A stretch of 64,000 nucleotides of DNA from Salinibacterium xinjiangense. Its GTDB lineage: Bacteria > Actinomycetota > Actinomycetes > Actinomycetales > Microbacteriaceae. Position numbers and translations under genes: made by a program. Below, piece after piece: positions 4,834-16,005 of the stretch. Below the pieces are notes generated by a model. That model ran no database searches, was not told the origin of the DNA, and saw nothing but the letters and a program-made list of their open reading frames with translations. The stretch spans positions 1 to 64,000 of the forward strand of contig NZ_BMLC01000004.1 of assembly GCF_014645015.1 (NCBI RefSeq), read 5' to 3'. Position 1 is the stretch's first letter. The number at the start of each line of letters is the position of its first letter.

Positions 4834-4857
4834 GTGAATCGCCCTGGGTTTCGTTCC
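4834..4857 (+). repeat. IS3 terminal inverted repeat (left)
   Basis: 24 bases identical to the reverse complement of 6121-6144. It begins GTGAATCGCC and ends GTTTCGTTCC. The stop codon of orfB touches its inner edge. Confidence 0.95.
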
Positions 4858-5783
4858 TAGGTGTTCTCTTGGGAAGCGGTCGCTTCCAAGAGTGATTCGG
4901 GATTAGCGTCGTGCGCCTGTTCGGCTTCGGTCGGGGTGCGGTAGTCGAGCTCAGAGTGGAGGTGCGGGTTGTTCCACCACCACACCCATTCCAGCGTCGC
5001 GAGTTCGACTTGCTCGACGGTGCGCCACGGCCCGCGAGCGCGGATCAGCTCGGTCTTGTAGAGCGCGTTGATGGCCCCAGCCATCGCATTGTCATAGGAG
5101 TCGCCGACCGTCCCGGTCGAGGGAATCGCGGCGAGTTCCGCGATTCGGTCCGTGTAGACCATGGCCATGTAGTTGGAGCCGTGATTGGAGTGGTGGGTGA
5201 GTCCAGTCAGGTCGCCACCGGCGTCAAAAGCCGCCATGTCTAGTGCTTGCAACGGCAAGATGTCCGTTTTCAGCGTTGACGCGACGTTCCATCCGACGAT
5301 ACGCCGCGAAAAGACATCGGTGACAAACGCGACATAAGCGAAGCCCTGCCAGGTGCGCACATAGGTGACGTCCACGACCCAAAGTTTGCGGGGTGCGTCG
5401 GCGCGGAAGTGCCGCTTCACGAGATCGGTGGGTCGCGCACCAGCTGGATCGGATTTCGTGGTGAACACCCGTTTACCGCGTTTGACACCGCGCAGCCCGA
5501 ACGAGCGCATGAGTCGCCCCGTCTGGTCACGGTCGATTTCCCAACCCTGCCGCCCCAGCAGCCGATGCATTTTCCGCACTCCATAGACGCCATAGTTCTC
5601 GGCATGCAGGCGCGCGATCTCAGTACCGATCAGTTGATCCGACAGTGTCCTGGCGGATGCCGGTCGGCTCTTCGCCGCCCGGTATCCGCGCGCGGTGACG
5701 AATCCCACCTCAGCTGCTCGCATCGTGTGGCAGACGAGCTCGACCGCGAAGCGATCCTTCATCACATCGATGAAGGCGATCAT
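4857..5783 (-). CDS. IS3 transposase OrfB, DDE residues altered
   Basis: A 308-residue integrase-type catalytic protein: an HTH_21-like region ('HAENYGVYGVRKMHRLL', near 60-77) followed by an rve domain. The first acidic residue is present in 'LWVVDVTYV'. The second, normally in HSDHGSQY, reads 'HHSNHGSNY' (AAT codon), and the third, normally the Glu of 'NALAESIN', reads 'NAMAGAIN' (GGG codon). Both changes are visible in the DNA and are single-base changes from GAT/GAC and GAG. An enzyme lacking two DDE residues should be inactive, although the frame is otherwise open. OrfB starts inside the orfA stop (ATGA), so it may be made by re-initiation or frameshifting. Confidence 0.9.
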   Translation of the reverse strand: MIAFIDVMKDRFAVELVCHTMRAAEVGFVTARGYRAAKSRPASARTLSDQLIGTEIARLHAENYGVYGVRKMHRLLGRQGWEIDRDQTGRLMRSFGLRGVKRGKRVFTTKSDPAGARPTDLVKRHFRADAPRKLWVVDVTYVRTWQGFAYVAFVTDVFSRRIVGWNVASTLKTDILPLQALDMAAFDAGGDLTGLTHHSNHGSNYMAMVYTDRIAELAAIPSTGTVGDSYDNAMAGAINALYKTELIRARGPWRTVEQVELATLEWVWWWNNPHLHSELDYRTPTEAEQAHDANPESLLEATASQENT

Positions 5784-6094
5784 TTCGACGAGGGGCGGCC
5801 GAGCTCGGTGGCGAAAAACACGCTCGCAGACCGCAGGATCTCGTTCGCTCTCTCCAACTCGACGATCTGTTTCTTCAACCGTTTGATCTCCAGCTGCGCC
5901 TCCGACGTCGTCCCGGGGCCTTTGCCAGCATCAATATCGCCGCGCTTCTTCCACAATCGCAGTGTCTCAGGATTCACTCCGAGACGGCCTGCGACATGGT
6001 TGGCCGCAGCGAAATCCGACGCGCGATCAGGTCGTGCTTCAGCAAGCATCCGAAGAGCACGTTCACGAAACTCGGCCGGGTAAGGGTTCGACAT
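5780..6094 (-). CDS. IS3 transposase OrfA (HTH and leucine zipper)
   Basis: A 104-residue protein starting 'MSNPYPAEFRERALRMLAEA', the usual beginning of IS3 OrfA, with a helix-turn-helix around residues 33-52 ('VAGRLGVNPETLRLWKKRG') and a leucine-zipper coiled coil ('LEIKRLKKQIVELERANEIL') near 68-88 that mediates multimerisation. It binds the element ends. The end 'FFATELGRPSSK' is the standard junction to orfB. The sequence appears intact. With a defective OrfB, OrfA alone could still occupy inverted repeats of related copies and so act as a repressor; that is inference. Confidence 0.92.
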   Translation of the reverse strand: MSNPYPAEFRERALRMLAEARPDRASDFAAANHVAGRLGVNPETLRLWKKRGDIDAGKGPGTTSEAQLEIKRLKKQIVELERANEILRSASVFFATELGRPSSK

Positions 6095-9264: not shown

Positions 9265-9840
9265 CTAGTCTCCGATGAGATCGAAGCCCAGATGGAGCGC
9301 TGCGTTCTTGCACGTGTCCTGATTGTTGTTTTGATCCAAGAAGCGGATGAACGCTCCTGCGAATGGCACAGACTCGCCGGAAGCGAGCATCGCCTTAATG
9401 GGCATCCAGTTACCGGTGATGCTGAAATCAATCGCCGGGCACGCTTCCGAAATTCCGCGAGACATGCTGGTCCCGGAGATGGTGACGCAAATCCGGTCGA
9501 GGGCGACAGGCGTGGCTCCCCCGTTCGTTACGAAGCCCGTGACAGGTGCCGCGGCGCTACCAGGCCCCATTCCGGCAATGGCGGAGGTCTGGGTGACGGA
9601 AATTGAATTCGTCGAGCCGACGCATTTGGATGACGGCTCAGCCGCCTGAACACGCGATGGAAACGCAGCAATCGTTGCGAGAACCACGGTGAGAATGAGC
9701 AGCAAACCCACAACGGCAATGGCTCGTTTTCGTCGTCGAGAGGAGACGAGCATGGCGATTCCCACAGCCACGACCACCGCGGCGATGACGATCACAGCAG
9801 CGATGGGCAGGTCAGTGCCGGTATACACAGCTGACCGCAC
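9265..9840 (-). CDS. Secreted protein of the ice-binding operon, paralogue of the 11557 product
   Basis: Third gene of the minus-strand operon, 19 bases after the ice-binding gene. The 191-residue frame begins 'VYTGTDLPIAAVIVIAAVV' and 'SSRRRKR', which looks like a sortase-type sorting signal (TG, membrane span, Arg cluster). It then runs into a second hydrophobic segment ending 'FPSRVQA-AEPSS', a normal signal-peptide cleavage site. An in-frame ATG at 9753 with GGGA upstream would give a 162-residue protein with an ordinary signal peptide, and I favour that as the translated form. The mature domain ends in 'ACPAIDFSITGNWMPI' and 'DQNNNQDTCKNAALHLGFDL', matching the end of the 11557 product, so the two proteins are probably related. 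Function unknown; likely surface partner of the ice-binding protein. Confidence 0.75.
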   Translation of the reverse strand: MRSAVYTGTDLPIAAVIVIAAVVVAVGIAMLVSSRRRKRAIAVVGLLLILTVVLATIAAFPSRVQAAEPSSKCVGSTNSISVTQTSAIAGMGPGSAAAPVTGFVTNGGATPVALDRICVTISGTSMSRGISEACPAIDFSITGNWMPIKAMLASGESVPFAGAFIRFLDQNNNQDTCKNAALHLGFDLIGD

Positions 9841-9859
9841 AGGATGTCAGCTGTGTGTC

Positions 9860-11467
9860 TCACGGGACAGTCACCTCCTGCCGTGCCGTTGCTGCGTTGC
9901 CCGCAGCATCTCGCACGCGAACGAGCACGTTGTGCGTTCCTGGCGGCAATGGGGCAATCGTGACTGACCAACTACCGTCGGCGCCAACGGTCGAATTCAG
10001 CGTCTGCCCAGATACCAGAAGACTGACGATCTGTCCTGCTGCCGCCGTCGAGGTGCCAGCAAAGGTCGGAGCGTTGCTGGAAGCTACCGCCGACGAGCCA
10101 CCGGTAATGGTGATGGCAGGTGGTAGGTCAACAGTGAACCGGATGGTGTTCGAAGCAAGCGTGAGGGCGCCGCTACCCAGCGCACGGCCGATCAGCTTCG
10201 CGTCGGCGCCGATCGTGATGGCGCCATGGGCGAGGATGGTGCCGGAGAAGAAAGAGTTTGCGCCCGTGCCGACAGCGCCGTTTGCCTGCCAAAACACGTT
10301 CGATGCTTTCGCTCCGTTGATGAGTTCGATCCTGCTGCCTGCGGCAGTGTTTAACGCTGCGTCGATTTGGAAGATGAATATTGCATTGGGGTTATTTTGG
10401 CCGTCGAGCGTGACGATGCCCCCGGCGCTGAGCTCGAAGGCTGCCTTGGTACTATGAACTCCGGCCGTGAAAGTGGCGCCAATTTGATCTCCCGCGAATG
10501 TTGTTGTCGGCGTTCGCGAAGCAGCATCGGCGTAGGCGGCGGCGCGGTCGGCATGCGCGCCGGAAGCGATCGCGTCGCCCGCATGAGTCTCGCCCTGCAC
10601 CGTGCCATCCGGAAAGCCCGTGACGAGGGGCGTGGGGTCAACGCCAAGGTCTCCACTGAGCGCGCTGACCGACGTATTCGTTGCTGTTGATCCGAGTGCC
10701 GAGTACGGAGCGGCGCGACCCAGAAAGATTCCGGCGAGTGCGGGAGGCGTGACGGAGAACGGGGAGCTGGTAGCTGGTGCTAGCGTGCCCGACGCCGCGA
10801 CAAGGGTGTAACCGACGCCAGGCGCGTCGATGCTGATGTCTGCGAAGGTGGCAATGCCGTTGGAGTCAGTGAACGCTGTCAGCGTTCCACCGAGCGTGCC
10901 GGAGGAAGGGTTTGAACCGGTCGATAGGACGACCGGAGTGCCGCTCGTCATGACCGCAGATCCGTCTGCAGACTGCACAACGACGGTGACAGCGGGCGTG
11001 ATTATGGTCCCGTCAGCGGTGTCACCCAGACTGGCTCCGAACGCGAGCTTCGCTGCGACCGCGACGGCCACAGCGCCACTAGGAGTGCCCGCCGCCGTCC
11101 ACGATCGGTAGATACTCGTGACAGTGTAGGTGAAGCTGCCATCGGCCGGGACCAAGTCAGTGCAGGATGTCGTCGCAATCAGGTTCCGCGCGTCCGAGCC
11201 GCAGGCCGGGGTCGTGGTCGTTCCGGATCTTCGGGTGACGACATAGCCGGAGGGCACGATCACGCCACTCGCCGCGGTCCAACTGACGGGCACTGCTGAC
11301 GATGCGTACGCGGGAACAATCACAGCGGTCGGCGGCTGAAGCCTGCCGGTCTCGGCAGAACCAGCGCCAACACCACTTCCAGTCCAGTATGAAAAGGCAG
11401 GAGACGCTGTTGCGAGTAATCCAACGGCTATGAGAGCGGTGACCAGCGTCAACAGTTTAGTTTTCAC
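9860..11467 (-). CDS. Ice-binding (antifreeze-like) DUF3494 protein
   Basis: 535 residues from a GTG start with a G-rich ribosome-binding site. A signal peptide ends near 'ASPAFSYW', and the SYWT motif is like SipW-type substrates. Next come a fibronectin-III-like region (about 40-135), an invasin/Big-like Ig region (about 140-245), the DUF3494 ice-binding beta-helix (about 250-455), and a C-terminal Ig-like domain ending 'VRVRDAAGNAATARQEVTVP'. DUF3494 hallmarks are 'LGRAAPYSALGSTATNTS', 'NPNAIFIFQIDAAL', 'NVFWQANGAVGTGA' and 'GTILAHGAITIGADAKLIGR'. This family binds ice planes, causing thermal hysteresis, recrystallisation inhibition or ice adhesion. The frame stops without a sorting signal, although one lies just downstream. 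It is the middle gene of a three-gene operon. Confidence 0.93.
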   Translation of the reverse strand: MKTKLLTLVTALIAVGLLATASPAFSYWTGSGVGAGSAETGRLQPPTAVIVPAYASSAVPVSWTAASGVIVPSGYVVTRRSGTTTTPACGSDARNLIATTSCTDLVPADGSFTYTVTSIYRSWTAAGTPSGAVAVAVAAKLAFGASLGDTADGTIITPAVTVVVQSADGSAVMTSGTPVVLSTGSNPSSGTLGGTLTAFTDSNGIATFADISIDAPGVGYTLVAASGTLAPATSSPFSVTPPALAGIFLGRAAPYSALGSTATNTSVSALSGDLGVDPTPLVTGFPDGTVQGETHAGDAIASGAHADRAAAYADAASRTPTTTFAGDQIGATFTAGVHSTKAAFELSAGGIVTLDGQNNPNAIFIFQIDAALNTAAGSRIELINGAKASNVFWQANGAVGTGANSFFSGTILAHGAITIGADAKLIGRALGSGALTLASNTIRFTVDLPPAITITGGSSAVASSNAPTFAGTSTAAAGQIVSLLVSGQTLNSTVGADGSWSVTIAPLPPGTHNVLVRVRDAAGNAATARQEVTVP

Positions 11468-11556
11468 GTGATCCCCCCGGGAAAGTAAGTACACAACAGA
11501 ACGTCGAACGAGGGCCAGGCACACCAACCGAGGTCAGTGTGCCCGGCGGATGTCTG

Positions 11557-12030
11557 CTATTTCGCTAGGAAATACAGCGGGATCTCGATGTCCTGGCATG
11601 CATCCTGGTTGGCGTCGCGGTTCAGCATCGAAATATCGATAGTCCCAATGAGCTGGCCACCTCCGGCGATCTGCCCAGGCTGGTACACCACATTGCCCAC
11701 AGCGAAGTCAGCTGCAGAGCAGCCGGTGACGGCTGTCCAATCGAGTCCGCCAGCGGATTTGACTGCCACGGTCACCTCGGAGAGCTTCTGGGTTCCCGTC
11801 CCCGGATTGGTTACGGTGAAGGCGAACGTCTTGGCCGCGCCACCTGGGGTGAGACCCGTGGGTGCTACGTTTTTGATGGTGAAAGGGGTGCTCGAGCCCG
11901 TCTTCACGATGCCGGTGCCGAAGCCCTGCGCGGTCCAGTAGGCGGATGCGGCCGTCCCTCCAGCGAGCACCAGCGCTGCCGTGGCGGCAACCGTTATGAG
12001 CGTGCGTTTGTTACGTCGTAATGCAGACAT
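11557..12030 (-). CDS. SipW-type secreted protein, first gene of the ice-binding operon
   Basis: 157 residues. A basic start ('MSALRRNKRTL') is followed by a hydrophobic core and 'GGTAASAYWTAQGFGTG', the AYW motif that follows cleavage by SipW-like signal peptidases in TasA/camelysin-type proteins. The mature part looks like a beta-sandwich ('AKTFAFTVTNPGTGTQKLSE'), and the end 'CSAADFAVGNVVYQPGQ' plus 'NRDANQDACQDIEIPLYFL' parallels the last 60 residues of the 9265 product. No SipW gene is in the window. The ATG at 12030 is preferred over one 11 codons upstream because it starts a standard signal peptide. A fibre or surface-layer role is inferred from the motif only. Confidence 0.82.
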   Translation of the reverse strand: MSALRRNKRTLITVAATAALVLAGGTAASAYWTAQGFGTGIVKTGSSTPFTIKNVAPTGLTPGGAAKTFAFTVTNPGTGTQKLSEVTVAVKSAGGLDWTAVTGCSAADFAVGNVVYQPGQIAGGGQLIGTIDISMLNRDANQDACQDIEIPLYFLAK

Positions 12031-12214: not shown

Positions 12215-14815
12215 TCAATCGGCGAGAGGATGAGGCTCGCCGGTTAAAGTGGGGGGAAGCGACGCGCGCAGCGGGCTATCAAGCAACTGTTGGCCAAAAC
12301 GTTTCATGACGGCGGCCGCTTCGACCCTCGAACTCACGCGCAGTTTCCGGTACAGCACCCTCACATGGGTCTTAACCGTATTGCGCGAGACGAACTGACT
12401 CTCAGCGATCTCGTTGAGAGTGCCCCCGAGCGCCAGTGCCCGAAGAATCTCCATCTCGCGCGCCGTAAGCCGTTCGTGCGGTAACGACTCGTCGGGCTGG
12501 CCCACCGTTTCCGGTACGGTGGCCAGAAAACGTCGCAGCTCGGTCCACTCGCGCTCGCGCTGTTCGGACATTCGGCTCCACAGTGCAACGCGAGTGCTCA
12601 CGGGAATCATCAGGAAGAGATACGGCATTGGCGATGAATGCTGCGTCAACAGCGCCTCGTCGAAAGTGTCGTCCGCCGCTATGACATCGCCCAGGAGCTC
12701 ATGGGCGGCGGCTCGAACCAGAAGCAACAGGGAATGACCGGCGAGTGAATGATGCGATCCATACAGCATGCAAGGATCGGTGATGTCGAGCACCTTGGAG
12801 CCGTTTCCCGAAGCGACGAGCGCCGCCGCGAGCAGGGGGACCACGCATTCACCGCGCGGCTCGCTCACACGAGCGGCGTCGAGGTAGTCGAAAGCGAGTC
12901 TCGGCTCGCCAGCGCGCATCATCGCCTCGAAGGTCATCTCTGAACTGAGTGCGACCAGCAGCGCACCGGGACGACTGTCTCGCGTGAGATGGCCGAGTTG
13001 GCGTACAGCAACCCGCGTCTGGGTTGCGTGACCGGAATGCAGGTAGACAAAGCACTCGCAGATCTTCATCAGTACGGTGAGGCTGACACTGAGGTTGGGA
13101 ACGACCGAGATGTCGAGTCGGAGGTCACTCATCCCATCGACATCGAGTGCAGCGCGTGCGAGGAAATACCGTGCGACGAATTCGGCGGTTTGCGCGATCG
13201 ACCGTGGCCAGCCACACCGCCGATAGACACGCTGAGCCTCCGCGAGATAAGCCTCCGCGAGCATTAGTTCTCCGCGCTCAGCCTCCACCGCAGCGAGTGT
13301 CGCCGTCGCCAAATAGAGGTGATACGGCATGGATCCTATGGTCACTGAATCTTGCGCAACCCGAGCGAACTTTGACGCTACGTCGACGTGACCGTCGAGC
13401 AGTTCGGCGGTCGCCAGTCCGATCCAGGCCAGTGACGGCGCGGCCCCGAATTGTCCGAGCTCCAGCCACGGAACCGTGAGAAGGGATTCCGCCAACTCTC
13501 GGCCAAGCGTGCGCGCTTCCTCGTATCTACCCCTGGCCACCAACGCGGCGGTGTGCGATACGACCACCATCGCGTCCAGTTCGGCCGACGTAGCCTTTGT
13601 CGCAGACAGATGGGCTCGCTTCAGCGCCTCCTGGATCTCATCCCTCTTTCGGTCGGGCTCAAGAGGCGGCACGAGGGAGATCTGTAGCCTCATCATCAAG
13701 GCCTCGACTGAGTGCTGAGAGTCGCTGATGTCGATCGCTGCAGCAGCTTTTCTCATTGTGTCGATGCGACCGAGGGTGATCAGCGTGAGCACGGGTACGT
13801 TCGCCAAGGCGATTAGCGCTTCGACGTGCTGGCCCGAACGAGCGAGGTGGAAAACGTTGGCGTCATTGTCGCCGATGGCCGCGGCGTCACGCGCGGCGTC
13901 GGTGTGAAACTGGATGGATTCGGGTGCTGCCCGCGCCGCGGCGTCGTCACCCAGCGCATCGTGGAATTCGGGCGCGAGCGAGATACGCACACCATCGTCG
14001 CCATCAACGCTGTGGATGACGCGGCTGTCCAGCAACTGGGTGAGCGCAGCATTGGGATCGTCGACAAGGTCGAATCGAGGGGAATTCCGGCGCACTGAGA
14101 GATACTGCGATAAGAGCAGCATCAGGCGGTATATGTCCCCACTTCCGTCGAGCTGCATGGCCCAGTCACGCACGTGCCCCGCCCTACCCCGTAAATCAGT
14201 CGGAGCAAGGTTGGCAAGGGCCGCGAGGGGATCTCGAAGGTCGGCAGGTCCGACCACCATGACTCCACGCCCTGAGCCAAGGTCGGCGTCAACCGCGGCA
14301 TCCGTGACGAAAGCCCAGCGCACGCTCGGCCAGTGCGCCCCGAGCGCAGCGAGCTGGGCAAAGTTGGGGAGCCCACGTGCGAGTTCCGCTTCGTTTACCA
14401 CCATGATAATTGGCGATGCCTCACGCTTGACGGCGTCGGTGGCGTCCTGCAGTCGGGTGAATGTCATGCGCTCGAACTGGGTGATGACACCTAATTCATA
14501 GAGGCCGTCGAATGCAGCGTCCAGGGCATCGCCCTGTTCGGGAAGTTCTGAGCCCTCAATCCACAGGATGCGCTCGGGGCGTGTGTGCAACCAGTTAGCG
14601 AATGACACCGACTTGCCACTGCCGCGTGGTGCGGAAACGACGAGGACCGAGCCGACGTCCAGCCAGGTCGCCAGGGCGCGGGCGAATGCTGGAGGAACCC
14701 GCGCATCAACGACGGGGGGCAGTCCAATGCGGTTGGAGAATGTGTGTTTCAGGGATCGCGGAACTCGAACAGAACTGACCGCTATGTCCCGCATGTCATC
14801 GCCTTGGGCTTTCAC
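12215..14815 (-). CDS. Large LuxR-family (MalT/LAL-type) ATP-binding regulator
   Basis: 866 residues. An N-terminal STAND-type NTPase has Walker A APRGSGKS at 62-69 and a probable Walker B 'PIIMVVNEAELARG'. A long helical repeat region of TPR/MalT type spans the middle, and the C-terminal LuxR helix-turn-helix begins 'LTAREMEILRALALGGTLNE' with the recognition helix 'VSRNTVKTHVRVLYRKLRV'. Such proteins switch on promoters after binding a small ligand and ATP. The GTG start at 14815 has GGGGGGAG 5 bases upstream. It lies 180 bases upstream of, and on the same strand as, the ice-binding operon, so it probably controls that operon, either by read-through or at the 12031-12214 promoter region; this is inference. 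Confidence 0.9.
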   Translation of the reverse strand: MKAQGDDMRDIAVSSVRVPRSLKHTFSNRIGLPPVVDARVPPAFARALATWLDVGSVLVVSAPRGSGKSVSFANWLHTRPERILWIEGSELPEQGDALDAAFDGLYELGVITQFERMTFTRLQDATDAVKREASPIIMVVNEAELARGLPNFAQLAALGAHWPSVRWAFVTDAAVDADLGSGRGVMVVGPADLRDPLAALANLAPTDLRGRAGHVRDWAMQLDGSGDIYRLMLLLSQYLSVRRNSPRFDLVDDPNAALTQLLDSRVIHSVDGDDGVRISLAPEFHDALGDDAAARAAPESIQFHTDAARDAAAIGDNDANVFHLARSGQHVEALIALANVPVLTLITLGRIDTMRKAAAAIDISDSQHSVEALMMRLQISLVPPLEPDRKRDEIQEALKRAHLSATKATSAELDAMVVVSHTAALVARGRYEEARTLGRELAESLLTVPWLELGQFGAAPSLAWIGLATAELLDGHVDVASKFARVAQDSVTIGSMPYHLYLATATLAAVEAERGELMLAEAYLAEAQRVYRRCGWPRSIAQTAEFVARYFLARAALDVDGMSDLRLDISVVPNLSVSLTVLMKICECFVYLHSGHATQTRVAVRQLGHLTRDSRPGALLVALSSEMTFEAMMRAGEPRLAFDYLDAARVSEPRGECVVPLLAAALVASGNGSKVLDITDPCMLYGSHHSLAGHSLLLLVRAAAHELLGDVIAADDTFDEALLTQHSSPMPYLFLMIPVSTRVALWSRMSEQREREWTELRRFLATVPETVGQPDESLPHERLTAREMEILRALALGGTLNEIAESQFVSRNTVKTHVRVLYRKLRVSSRVEAAAVMKRFGQQLLDSPLRASLPPTLTGEPHPLAD

Positions 14816-15265: not shown

Positions 15266-16005
15266 CTAGCGGATGGTGTCATCGCTATCGTCGCTGGGTG
15301 AGTTCGGCTCTGGCACATCGACCAGCAGTACCGGTGTGGAAGTGGCAATGTTGCCCGCGGCATCACGGGCAGTAGCAGTAGCAGTCACTGTTACCTCGCC
15401 GTTGGCCAGGAACGGCGAAATGACCGGTCAGGCCCTGCCGCGCCTCACCGTTGCGCGAAGCGACGGGCCCTAACGTTGCGTGTCACGATCGACCCTCACG
15501 CGCCGACCGTGGTTCCTGCAATTCTCGTGGTAGCCGTTGTCGTGGTAGCCCATGAGCCTCCATAAATCGCGATCAGAGGGTCTGAGGCGCCCACGGTAAG
15601 AACCTGCTCTGCCATAACTTCAATTCCCGTTCCAGCCGTAACGGCGGTTACCCGACTCTGTACGCCATCTGCCAGTGCGGCGGTCCTCACGCGCCAGCTA
15701 CCTTCCGACGGTTCCCATGAGGTCAGAACCTGGCCCGCCACCGTCACAGTCACTTTCGAGTCGGCTACTGCATCAGCCGTACCGCTGATGGTCGTCTCAG
15801 AGAGTCTCGTGGTTGCTGCAGTCCCTCCGGTGATGACGATCGAGAGTGCTGTTTCGCTGATCAGTCCGAAGATATTTGCGTCCAGGGGGTCTGCTGAGGA
15901 TTGAGGTGACACCTTGACGTGCAGCAGACCCCTTTGCTGCCCTTTCTCACCGATGCGGAGGTCACTCTGGGCACCGGCGTCATTGTCATGTCGGTGTGTG
16001 GGGTA
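15266..16005 (-). pseudogene. Remnant of a secreted Ig-like repeat protein
   Basis: Minus-strand frames spell pieces of bacterial Ig-like domains broken by stops and shifts. From 16005 one frame gives 'LRIGEKGQQRGLLHVKVSPQ', then 'TISGTADAVADSKVTVTVAG' and 'TTTTATTRIAGTTVGA' before a TGA at about 15496. The reading resumes in another frame as 'ISPFLANGEVTVTATATARD' and 'AAGNIATSTPVLLVDVPEP', ending with a stop at 15266-15268. The repeated 'TI(S/A)GT..VTVTV' pattern is the same type as the C-terminal domain of the ice-binding protein at 9860, so this may be the tail of a decayed paralogue. No N-terminal portion is left. Confidence 0.68.

Follow-up and report, generated by a model that had tools for sequence, protein, structure and literature searches.

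A conserved gene trio around a DUF3494 protein in Salinibacterium xinjiangense and other Actinomycetota, and its possible role as an ice-tipped surface fibre

The trio and its distribution

The stretch of DNA analyzed here, referred to as the window, comprises the first 64,000 nucleotides of contig NZ_BMLC01000004.1 of Salinibacterium xinjiangense (Microbacteriaceae, Actinomycetota; assembly GCF_014645015.1) and carries, head to tail on its minus strand, three genes here called gene 1 (12030-11557, 157 amino acids), gene 2 (11467-9860, 535 amino acids), and gene 3 (9840-9265, 191 amino acids). Coordinates are those of the window, and all features of the trio given below lie on the same strand. 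A sequence-only reading had described the region 9265..12030 as an ice-binding gene between two related small genes, and the genes, their order and their strand are confirmed, together with the end patterns it had quoted (NRDANQDACQ in gene 1, DQNNNQDTCK in gene 3) and the AYW and SYW motifs of genes 1 and 2, which we take to be labels of SipW-type signals. Its assignment of the middle gene is borne out by the Pfam Ice_binding family (PF11999), which gene 2 matches at E 1.4e-45 with 156 bits against a cut-off of 28.7; gene 2 is hence a predicted ice binder, and it holds the sole DUF3494 match of the window's genome.

Gene 1 (11557..12030) encodes an AYW-type signal peptide, an N-terminal segment and an immunoglobulin (Ig)-like domain with a Cys pair, as seen in an alignment of 32 sequences. 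Gene 2 (9860..11467) encodes a SYW-type signal peptide, a stretch with one Cys pair, a stalk, the DUF3494 domain (10142..10690), which has solved relatives in 5uyt (E 2.7e-37) and 6eio, and a terminal Big_13 bacterial Ig-like domain (9866..10093; Pfam E 4.6e-11). Gene 3 (9265..9840) encodes a Thr-Gly (TG), a two-helix hairpin and an Ig-like domain. Neither gene 1 nor gene 3 has a match over the cut-off in Pfam or NCBIfam; the two resemble each other at 26% identity (BLASTP E 2e-7 for a single comparison). Comparison of the two family profiles, built from 32 gene 1 and 16 gene 3 sequences, aligns them over 112 columns with 98.9% probability and E 2.4e-17, and each family hidden Markov model picks up the other gene of the window's locus (147/37 and 163/37 bits). 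The likeness is beyond chance, and by profile comparison the two genes are paralogues flanking a DUF3494 gene; the profile similarity that had been put forward as a check on the trio is thus highly significant.

The trio is wider in its distribution than first supposed. In a scan of 27 genomes of the genus, gene 1 occurs in two, the window's genome and G018, and gene 3 in the same two. Across the family, gene 1 is matched, in some cases partially, in 32 of 398 genomes, 16 of which have at least two matches, mostly a few kilobases apart on one strand, the second match being gene 3 or another small Ig-like protein of a more distant operon type (group B, below). A scan of the order with the gene 3 alignment finds matches at E 0.001 or better in 30 of 396 genomes, reaching at least 200 bits only in the window's genome and in G598. 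A further scan of named genomes yielded 50 loci, from which redundant ones (L080, L081, L084, L087, L088, L102, L103, and L106, copies of L055, L056, L058, L025, L060, L064, L061, and L059, respectively) were dropped before trios were counted, and a Subtercola pair split over two contigs (L057/L092 and L074) was left out of that count. Genes 1 and 3 were found around a middle gene at 19 non-redundant loci, the window included. One to three DUF3494 domains lie between the pair in 13 of them: the window, a Salinibacterium metagenome-assembled genome (MAG), two Glaciihabitans MAGs, a Schumannella MAG, Compostimonas suwonensis, Herbiconiux daphne, two Promicromonospora, Arthrobacter sp. 260, an Aeromicrobium MAG, and two further genomes. 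The six trios without DUF3494 belong to two Subtercola, G033, a Mycetocola MAG, and two Actinokineospora. A 20th trio, in G598, has a middle protein of 165 amino acids, its gene 1 having been read from the list of open reading frames (ORFs). The trio is hence conserved in the Microbacteriaceae, Promicromonospora, Arthrobacter, and Actinokineospora, as well as in an Aeromicrobium MAG.

A segment shared by genes 1 and 2

Immediately behind their signal peptides, genes 1 and 2 have in common the segment YWTxxGxGxGxAxTG (YWTAQGFGTGIVKTGS in gene 1, 11893..11940; YWTGSGVGAGSAETGR in gene 2, 11342..11389), and their likeness makes both stretches candidate donor strands. Over all pairs of 21 loci, the two proteins agree after the YW at a mean of 5.82 of 15 positions, while permutation of the gene 2 columns gives a mean of 2.89 (sd 0.68) and none of 2000 permutations reaches 5.82; two other YW proteins of the window's genome match gene 1 at only 2.76 and 2.38 of the 15 positions. 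Gene 2 was located in these comparisons by its YW-type start, which was found at 21 of the 26 loci tried, and L059, L064, L085, L107, and L083, where it was not located, are absent from the gene 2 segment and distance counts. Counting from the aromatic residue, position 6 is Gly in 20 of the 21 gene 2 proteins and position 17 is Leu in all 21, and the mature protein has exactly two Cys in 16 of them (3, 3, 4, 4, and 6 in the others). The segment was not seen in gene 3, and no sorting signal was seen in the window's gene 1 or gene 2. In the AlphaFold monomer of gene 1, block means of the predicted local distance difference test (pLDDT) are 87-96 from residue 61 on and below 50 for residues 7-46, a low confidence that would fit a free strand and would equally fit a mere lack of data.

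The segment could also be read as recognition by a SipW-like peptidase and nothing further, with genes 1 and 3 acting as independent small surface proteins or chaperones that bind the stalk of gene 2 and form no fibre. Profile searches of solved structures yield nothing useful (best E 0.055, to ribosomal S11, and 1.3), so that no solved homologue by sequence speaks for a fibre, and the SipW-cognate signal TIGR04088 is matched by five of the 32 gene 1 proteins (best 8.7e-4), the window's protein not among them. The Peptidase_M73 family (PF12389) does not match the window's gene 1 and weakly matches one of the 32 relatives (E 0.0082). However, the likeness of genes 1 and 2 extends well past the cleavage site and is missing from the two other YW proteins of the genome, and no SipW-type match is found in two of 13 trio genomes. 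An arrangement without a fibre is regarded as unlikely.

An N-terminal sorting signal in gene 3

The AlphaFold model of gene 3 consists of a helical hairpin and an Ig-like domain. In the window, the first helix (residues 13-34, 9739..9804), which the model and the relatives both indicate, is followed by basic residues and by a second helix (residues 41-58, 9667..9720) with VQA behind it; the Ig-like domain (residues 80-190, 9271..9603) is modeled with pLDDT block means of 80-97 and corresponds to the profile match with gene 1. The relatives begin with a Cys and L[APSG]xTG, after which come two hydrophobic stretches separated by basic residues, the latter stretch often followed by A-x-A, and then a second Cys and the Ig-like domain. 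L[APSG]xTG stands near the N-terminus in 16 of 20 gene 3 proteins, the letters [APSG] having been picked after the sequences were seen; a Cys precedes this position in 19, the signal-peptidase-like A-x-A is present in 17, and the Cys after the second helix is present in all 20. This last Cys, at residue 73 in the window (9622..9624), is also invariant in the 16 sequences of the family alignment, and may be the partner of the Cys that lies ahead of the motif in the relatives. The four proteins without the motif are those of the window (AVYTG), the Aeromicrobium MAG (LATIG), Promicromonospora soli (LSPTS), and Arthrobacter sp. 260 (none).

A start combining Cys and L[APSG]xTG is found in 14 of the 989 distinct ORFs called at the loci, gene 3 included, and 13 of these 14 are gene 3. 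When NCBIfam anchor models were run on ten gene 3 proteins with E up to 0.1, the LAVTG model matched three and the LPXTG model two. In all 16 gene 3 proteins that have a sorting signal, this signal is N-terminal instead of C-terminal, and by its sequence it appears to be a signal of the sortase type placed at the wrong end of the protein. Sortases are available in these bacteria, with three over the cut-off in the window's genome and matches in 12 of the 13 trio genomes, and the window's own genome encodes a protein with a C-terminal LAYTG. A separate SipW operon of that genome (L160; G000:C3, ~95.6-99.7 kb) comprises a camelysin-like AYW protein (Peptidase_M73 E 0.0029, below the cut-off), a C-terminal LAYTG protein, an AYW protein bearing a ricin-type lectin domain, and a SipW-type peptidase.

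More distant operons, here termed group B (L066-L073, L112-L129), combine a YW-type Ig protein with a second small Ig protein and, in some cases, a third YW protein, followed in several loci by a large protein; in L117, L123, L125, and L129 the second Ig domain forms the end of a larger ORF. In the Arthrobacter loci L118, L119, and L120 of this group, the first two of which are close kin, the protein at the position of the base ends in a C-terminal ELPVTG, ELPTTG, or ELPDTG, a signal that the other group-B proteins at that position do not have. To judge from these sequences, the C-terminal LPxTG of the three proteins is the strongest independent indication that a wall anchor is encoded at this place in the operon.

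It might be argued that gene 3 is instead a two-helix membrane protein, clamped at its outer ends by a disulfide and cut by neither sortase nor signal peptidase, which would serve as a membrane base or as a TapA-like chaperone for gene 1. The helical hairpin of the model is in keeping with this, as is the retention of both Cys where the sortase motif is lost. Against it stand the recurrence of L[APSG]xTG (16/20) and of A-x-A after the second helix (17/20), and the normal C-terminal LPxTG of the three group-B proteins, and an uncut membrane protein is held to be improbable.

The start of gene 3 in the window

In the window itself, the start of gene 3 departs from that of its relatives. A GTG overlapping the stop of gene 2 (9861..9863), at the position where most relatives start, lies 10 bases behind an AGGAGG (9874-9879), and its frame reads Cys, Leu, and then a stop, whereas the Thr-Gly and the rest of gene 3 lie in a different frame, the departure falling between 9820 and 9839. 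The window's gene 3 hence keeps the TG, the helix, and the basic residues, while the full sorting motif is not in frame. The offset could stem from decay, a sequencing error, or a translational shift, and, unless it is an error, this strain may produce little or none of the base protein. That gene 3 is decaying or mis-sequenced here, and the trio non-functional or misread in this strain, is a serious possibility if not the favored one, and one compatible with any reading of the relatives. It is suggested by the Cys of the conserved start and the TG falling in different frames between 9839 and 9820, and by the two available starts: translation from the one behind AGGAGG meets a stop, and for the GTG at 9840 no comparable site can be seen by eye. 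On the other side, gene 3 is otherwise open and matches the family domain with 147 bits.

The junction of genes 2 and 3 bears on a further possibility, namely that the N-terminal signal belongs to gene 2, which would be extended by a programmed frameshift or read-through into a long sortase-anchored product, leaving the Ig domain as a leftover or as a second product. Among the 15 relatives in which both ends were located (the gene 2 end of L059 being taken from a separate inspection of that locus), the two genes overlap by 4 bases in nine, as such an extension might lead one to expect, and the gene 2 proteins of L061, L063, L099, and L110 end in a Pro/Thr-rich or acidic spacer like that of wall proteins. 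Yet gene 3 has its own start codon, with a Cys at residue 3 in 11 of 20 proteins (start codons in the relatives having been chosen by us near the Cys), and the spacing varies, one relative overlapping by 1 base and the remaining five having gaps of 3 to 43 bases, so that no fixed shift would join the frames; nor was a common slippery site seen by eye in ten junctions. With spacing and frame both variable, a programmed frameshift was rejected as the principal explanation, and ownership of the signal by gene 2 is considered very improbable.

The DUF3494 branch and the spacer between genes 1 and 2

A tree of 76 DUF3494 domains places the 21 trio domains in one group with a support of 76, which is not strong, nested in a set of 25 rows with a support of 100, and the trio can therefore be assigned to one branch of DUF3494. 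The other four rows of that set are three domains of genes adjoining the Glaciihabitans trios and one domain of G018. The genes beside the Glaciihabitans trios (L055:2992-4968, L056:13056-14720) are divergent extra ice-binding genes.

A 15-bp RNA stem-loop lies between genes 1 and 2 (11514..11547). Relative to shuffled sequences, its fold has a z-score of -3.5 for 11480-11556 (0/200 shuffles) and of -2.9 for 11468-11556 (2/200), and a fold with z < -2 is found within 70 bases past gene 1 in 13 of the 19 trios. Such a structure may allow more of gene 1 to be made than of genes 2 and 3.

A donor-strand fibre as a model for the trio

Gene order, paralogy, the shared segment, and the conserved motifs can be brought together in a model, to which we assign about an even chance, in which the trio encodes a TasA-like donor-strand surface fibre holding the cell to ice, with gene 2 as the tip, gene 1 as the shaft, and gene 3 as the wall-anchored base. 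After removal of its signal peptide, the N-terminal strand of each gene 1 subunit (YWTxxGxGxGxAxTG) would enter the Ig-like domain of a neighboring subunit. Gene 2, which has the same N-terminal segment and should therefore be able to plug into a shaft subunit, would carry the ice-binding domain at the tip; it would act as a donor only, since it has no Ig domain of the gene 1/gene 3 family to accept a strand. Gene 3 would provide the base, with an acceptor Ig-like domain, no donor segment, and an anchor composed of N-terminal sorting signal, helix, basic residues, second helix, and signal-peptidase site. A short N-terminal stub of gene 3 would be joined to the wall by sortase, the domain would be released by a signal-peptidase cut past the second helix, and the base would stay wall-bound through a disulfide linking the Cys of the stub with the one that opens the mature domain. 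Lastly, the overlap of genes 2 and 3 would yield tip and base in equal amounts, and the stem-loop after gene 1 would allow for more shaft. A more specific proposal, about which we are considerably more doubtful, is that such a hairpin, cut twice, attaches the protein to the wall through its N-terminal end, keeps the Ig domain available to a donor strand, and serves as the base of a non-covalent, ice-tipped fibre across several actinobacterial families.

The sequence-only reading had envisaged an ice-adhesion fibre or surface layer with two paralogous carriers for the ice-binding unit. The paralogy stands, but the two small proteins are not equivalent carriers, because gene 1 has the N-terminal segment and gene 3 an anchor in its place, and the fibre or layer is a proposed structure.

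Several observations weigh against the fibre and its anchor. Foldseek returns no match at E 0.001 or better for the models of gene 1 and gene 3. For gene 3, the first five rows are eukaryotic Ig-like sandwiches; what speaks for the model, though weakly, is that the TasA fibre 8aur ranks ninth with a non-significant E of 7.1e-3 (TMq 0.32), and chains of the donor-strand pilus complexes 7b0x, 2wmp, 9fxb, and 9fy9, some of them chaperones by entry title, occur among the 50 matches listed; for gene 1, the 50 matches listed are general Ig-like sandwiches, with neither the TasA fibre nor donor-strand pilus chains among them. The gene 3 model has seven strands, so that it does not demonstrate an open acceptor groove. 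A SipW-type peptidase is present in the window's genome, but across the trio genomes it is over the cut-off in seven of 13 (any match in 11), with no match in the 99%-complete G328, and it reaches the cut-off in 122 of 199 genomes of the family; given this lack of enrichment, its presence was rejected as a marker of the trio. Moreover, in none of the genomes searched is the trio adjoined by a SipW or sortase match. Because the structural matches fall short of significance and SipW is not enriched, the fibre is placed no higher than an even chance and the double-cut anchor well below it.

The anchor is further constrained by the gene 3 proteins of Promicromonospora soli, Arthrobacter sp. 260, and the Aeromicrobium MAG, which keep both Cys without a good sortase motif and mean that sortase cutting cannot be general. 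Likewise, the group-B base proteins do not show a clean joint loss of the extra (third) Cys and the LAxTG signal. Nor is gene 3 indispensable, given 16 Arthrobacter/Pseudarthrobacter loci in which the stretch covered contains gene 1 without gene 3, two of these loci ending within 1 kb past gene 1. Among ten such gene-1-only loci, eight continue with a YW- or FW-type ORF of 468-482 residues and L083 with an ORF of 824 residues, while the tenth, L086, ends after gene 1. The stem-loop is below the threshold in six of the 19 trios and is seen in four of 15 loci without gene 3. In favor of the model, the evolutionary distances of genes 1 and 3 (Mantel r 0.59, 19 loci, 0/10000 permutations), genes 1 and 2 (r 0.75, 15 loci, 0/10000), and genes 3 and 2 (r 0.50, 15 loci, 1/10000) are correlated, although common species history alone could produce this.

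DUF3494 is present in 141 of 398 genomes of the family, and is thus far commoner than gene 1, which is found in 32. Around 47 of the 50 DUF3494 loci inspected, out to about 1.5 kb per side, the pair is absent, while two loci have both genes and one has gene 1 only; this sample combined 20 loci of earlier scans with the 30 best-scoring of the family scan, and the lower-scoring trio genes of G071, G332, G266, and G109 lie outside it. The expectation that the same pair would accompany DUF3494 genes elsewhere accordingly holds for the closest relatives, in 13 of 19 trios, and largely fails for the wider DUF3494 sample. Together with the six trios in which the pair flanks a protein without DUF3494, this absence suggests that the pair serves surface display in general, with a tip that is ice-binding in many cases but not in all. 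No Pfam domain over the cut-off was found in any of five gene 2 proteins without DUF3494 (L058, L060, L061, L093, and L089).

Relation to known systems

The fibre model, as set out above, would make the trio a variant on known kinds of assembly, namely donor-strand matrix fibres and sortase anchoring, with an unusual base protein. In TasA fibres, the strand just behind the signal peptide is passed to the next subunit, and the N-terminus of TapA resembles the TasA donor strand, its authors taking TapA as a donor too, according to the parts of the report consulted (PMC9674648). As in TasA and TapA, the strand proposed for the trio comes right after the signal peptide and is echoed in a partner protein (PMC9674648, same parts). 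The trio also has in common with the SipW-dependent TasA, TapA, and CalY of Bacillus small beta-sandwich subunits and aromatic residues at the cleavage site, although it has no significant sequence or fold match to them and the SipW-type genes lie elsewhere in the genomes examined. Unlike these systems, it has an ice-binding tip and a paralogous base with a sortase-type N-terminal anchor, and by analogy its proposed logic would be fuller, with one protein as donor only, one as donor and acceptor, and one as acceptor only with an anchor.

The anchor suggested for gene 3 is not of an unprecedented kind, since M26 IgA1 metalloproteases of Gram-positive bacteria have an N-terminal LPXTG and are cut 56 residues further on, as stated in the sections of that work consulted (PMC9637739). 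These are unrelated large enzymes, whereas the LPXTG-type signal of the gene 3 family, likewise N-terminal, is carried by an Ig-like protein of ~180-240 residues and has a conserved Cys on either side. In the portions of the literature consulted on such signals, no description of a flanking Cys pair was found. A pneumococcal N-terminal LPNTG was reportedly described by Bender and Weiser in 2006.

The tip, shaft, and base logic recalls that of the sortase-built pili of Gram-positive bacteria, as outlined in the available parts of a source on them (PMC11389406), but no sorting signal was seen in the window's genes 1 and 2, and in the searched genomes no sortase was matched next to the trio. The ice-binding adhesin of Marinomonas primoryensis, a surface protein that holds the cell to ice according to the sections consulted (PMC3492233; PMC5014055), is one giant Gram-negative protein instead of a multi-gene fibre. 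Gene 2 has a domain that is a member of the DUF3494 ice-binding proteins, from which it differs in being carried on a stalk behind a YW-type signal peptide, in falling on a branch of its own in the sample, and in lying between two paralogues. The sequence-only reading had known of no description of such a trio, and none was found in the literature searched, among the matches listed; queries on ice-binding with SipW, or on ice-binding with pilus and DUF3494, returned no papers.

Were the fibre model correct, the Actinomycetota would have an undescribed donor-strand fibre with interchangeable tips, one type of them ice-binding, and a base with an N-terminal sortase signal. It would account for how DUF3494 could be presented away from the cell in some of these bacteria instead of merely being secreted, and would provide a second, structurally simple case of N-terminal sortase anchoring.

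Neighboring genes

Upstream of the trio, and also on the minus strand, lies a gene for a LuxR-type regulator of 866 amino acids (12215..14815; Pfam GerE 5.7e-15). The trios nearest to that of the window keep this regulator close by, with relatives of 53-58% identity in L025, L055, and L056 and a partial one where the contig of L082 ends, and in the two Glaciihabitans loci a divergent ice-binding gene is placed between trio and regulator. Beyond the regulator gene, a short Ig-like remnant is found at 15496-15912 (Ca_tandemer E 3e-5, below the cut-off). On the other side of the trio, about 3 kb from gene 3, a transposase pair with rve, HTH_21, and HTH_Tnp_1 domains, IS3-like, occupies positions 4857-6094.

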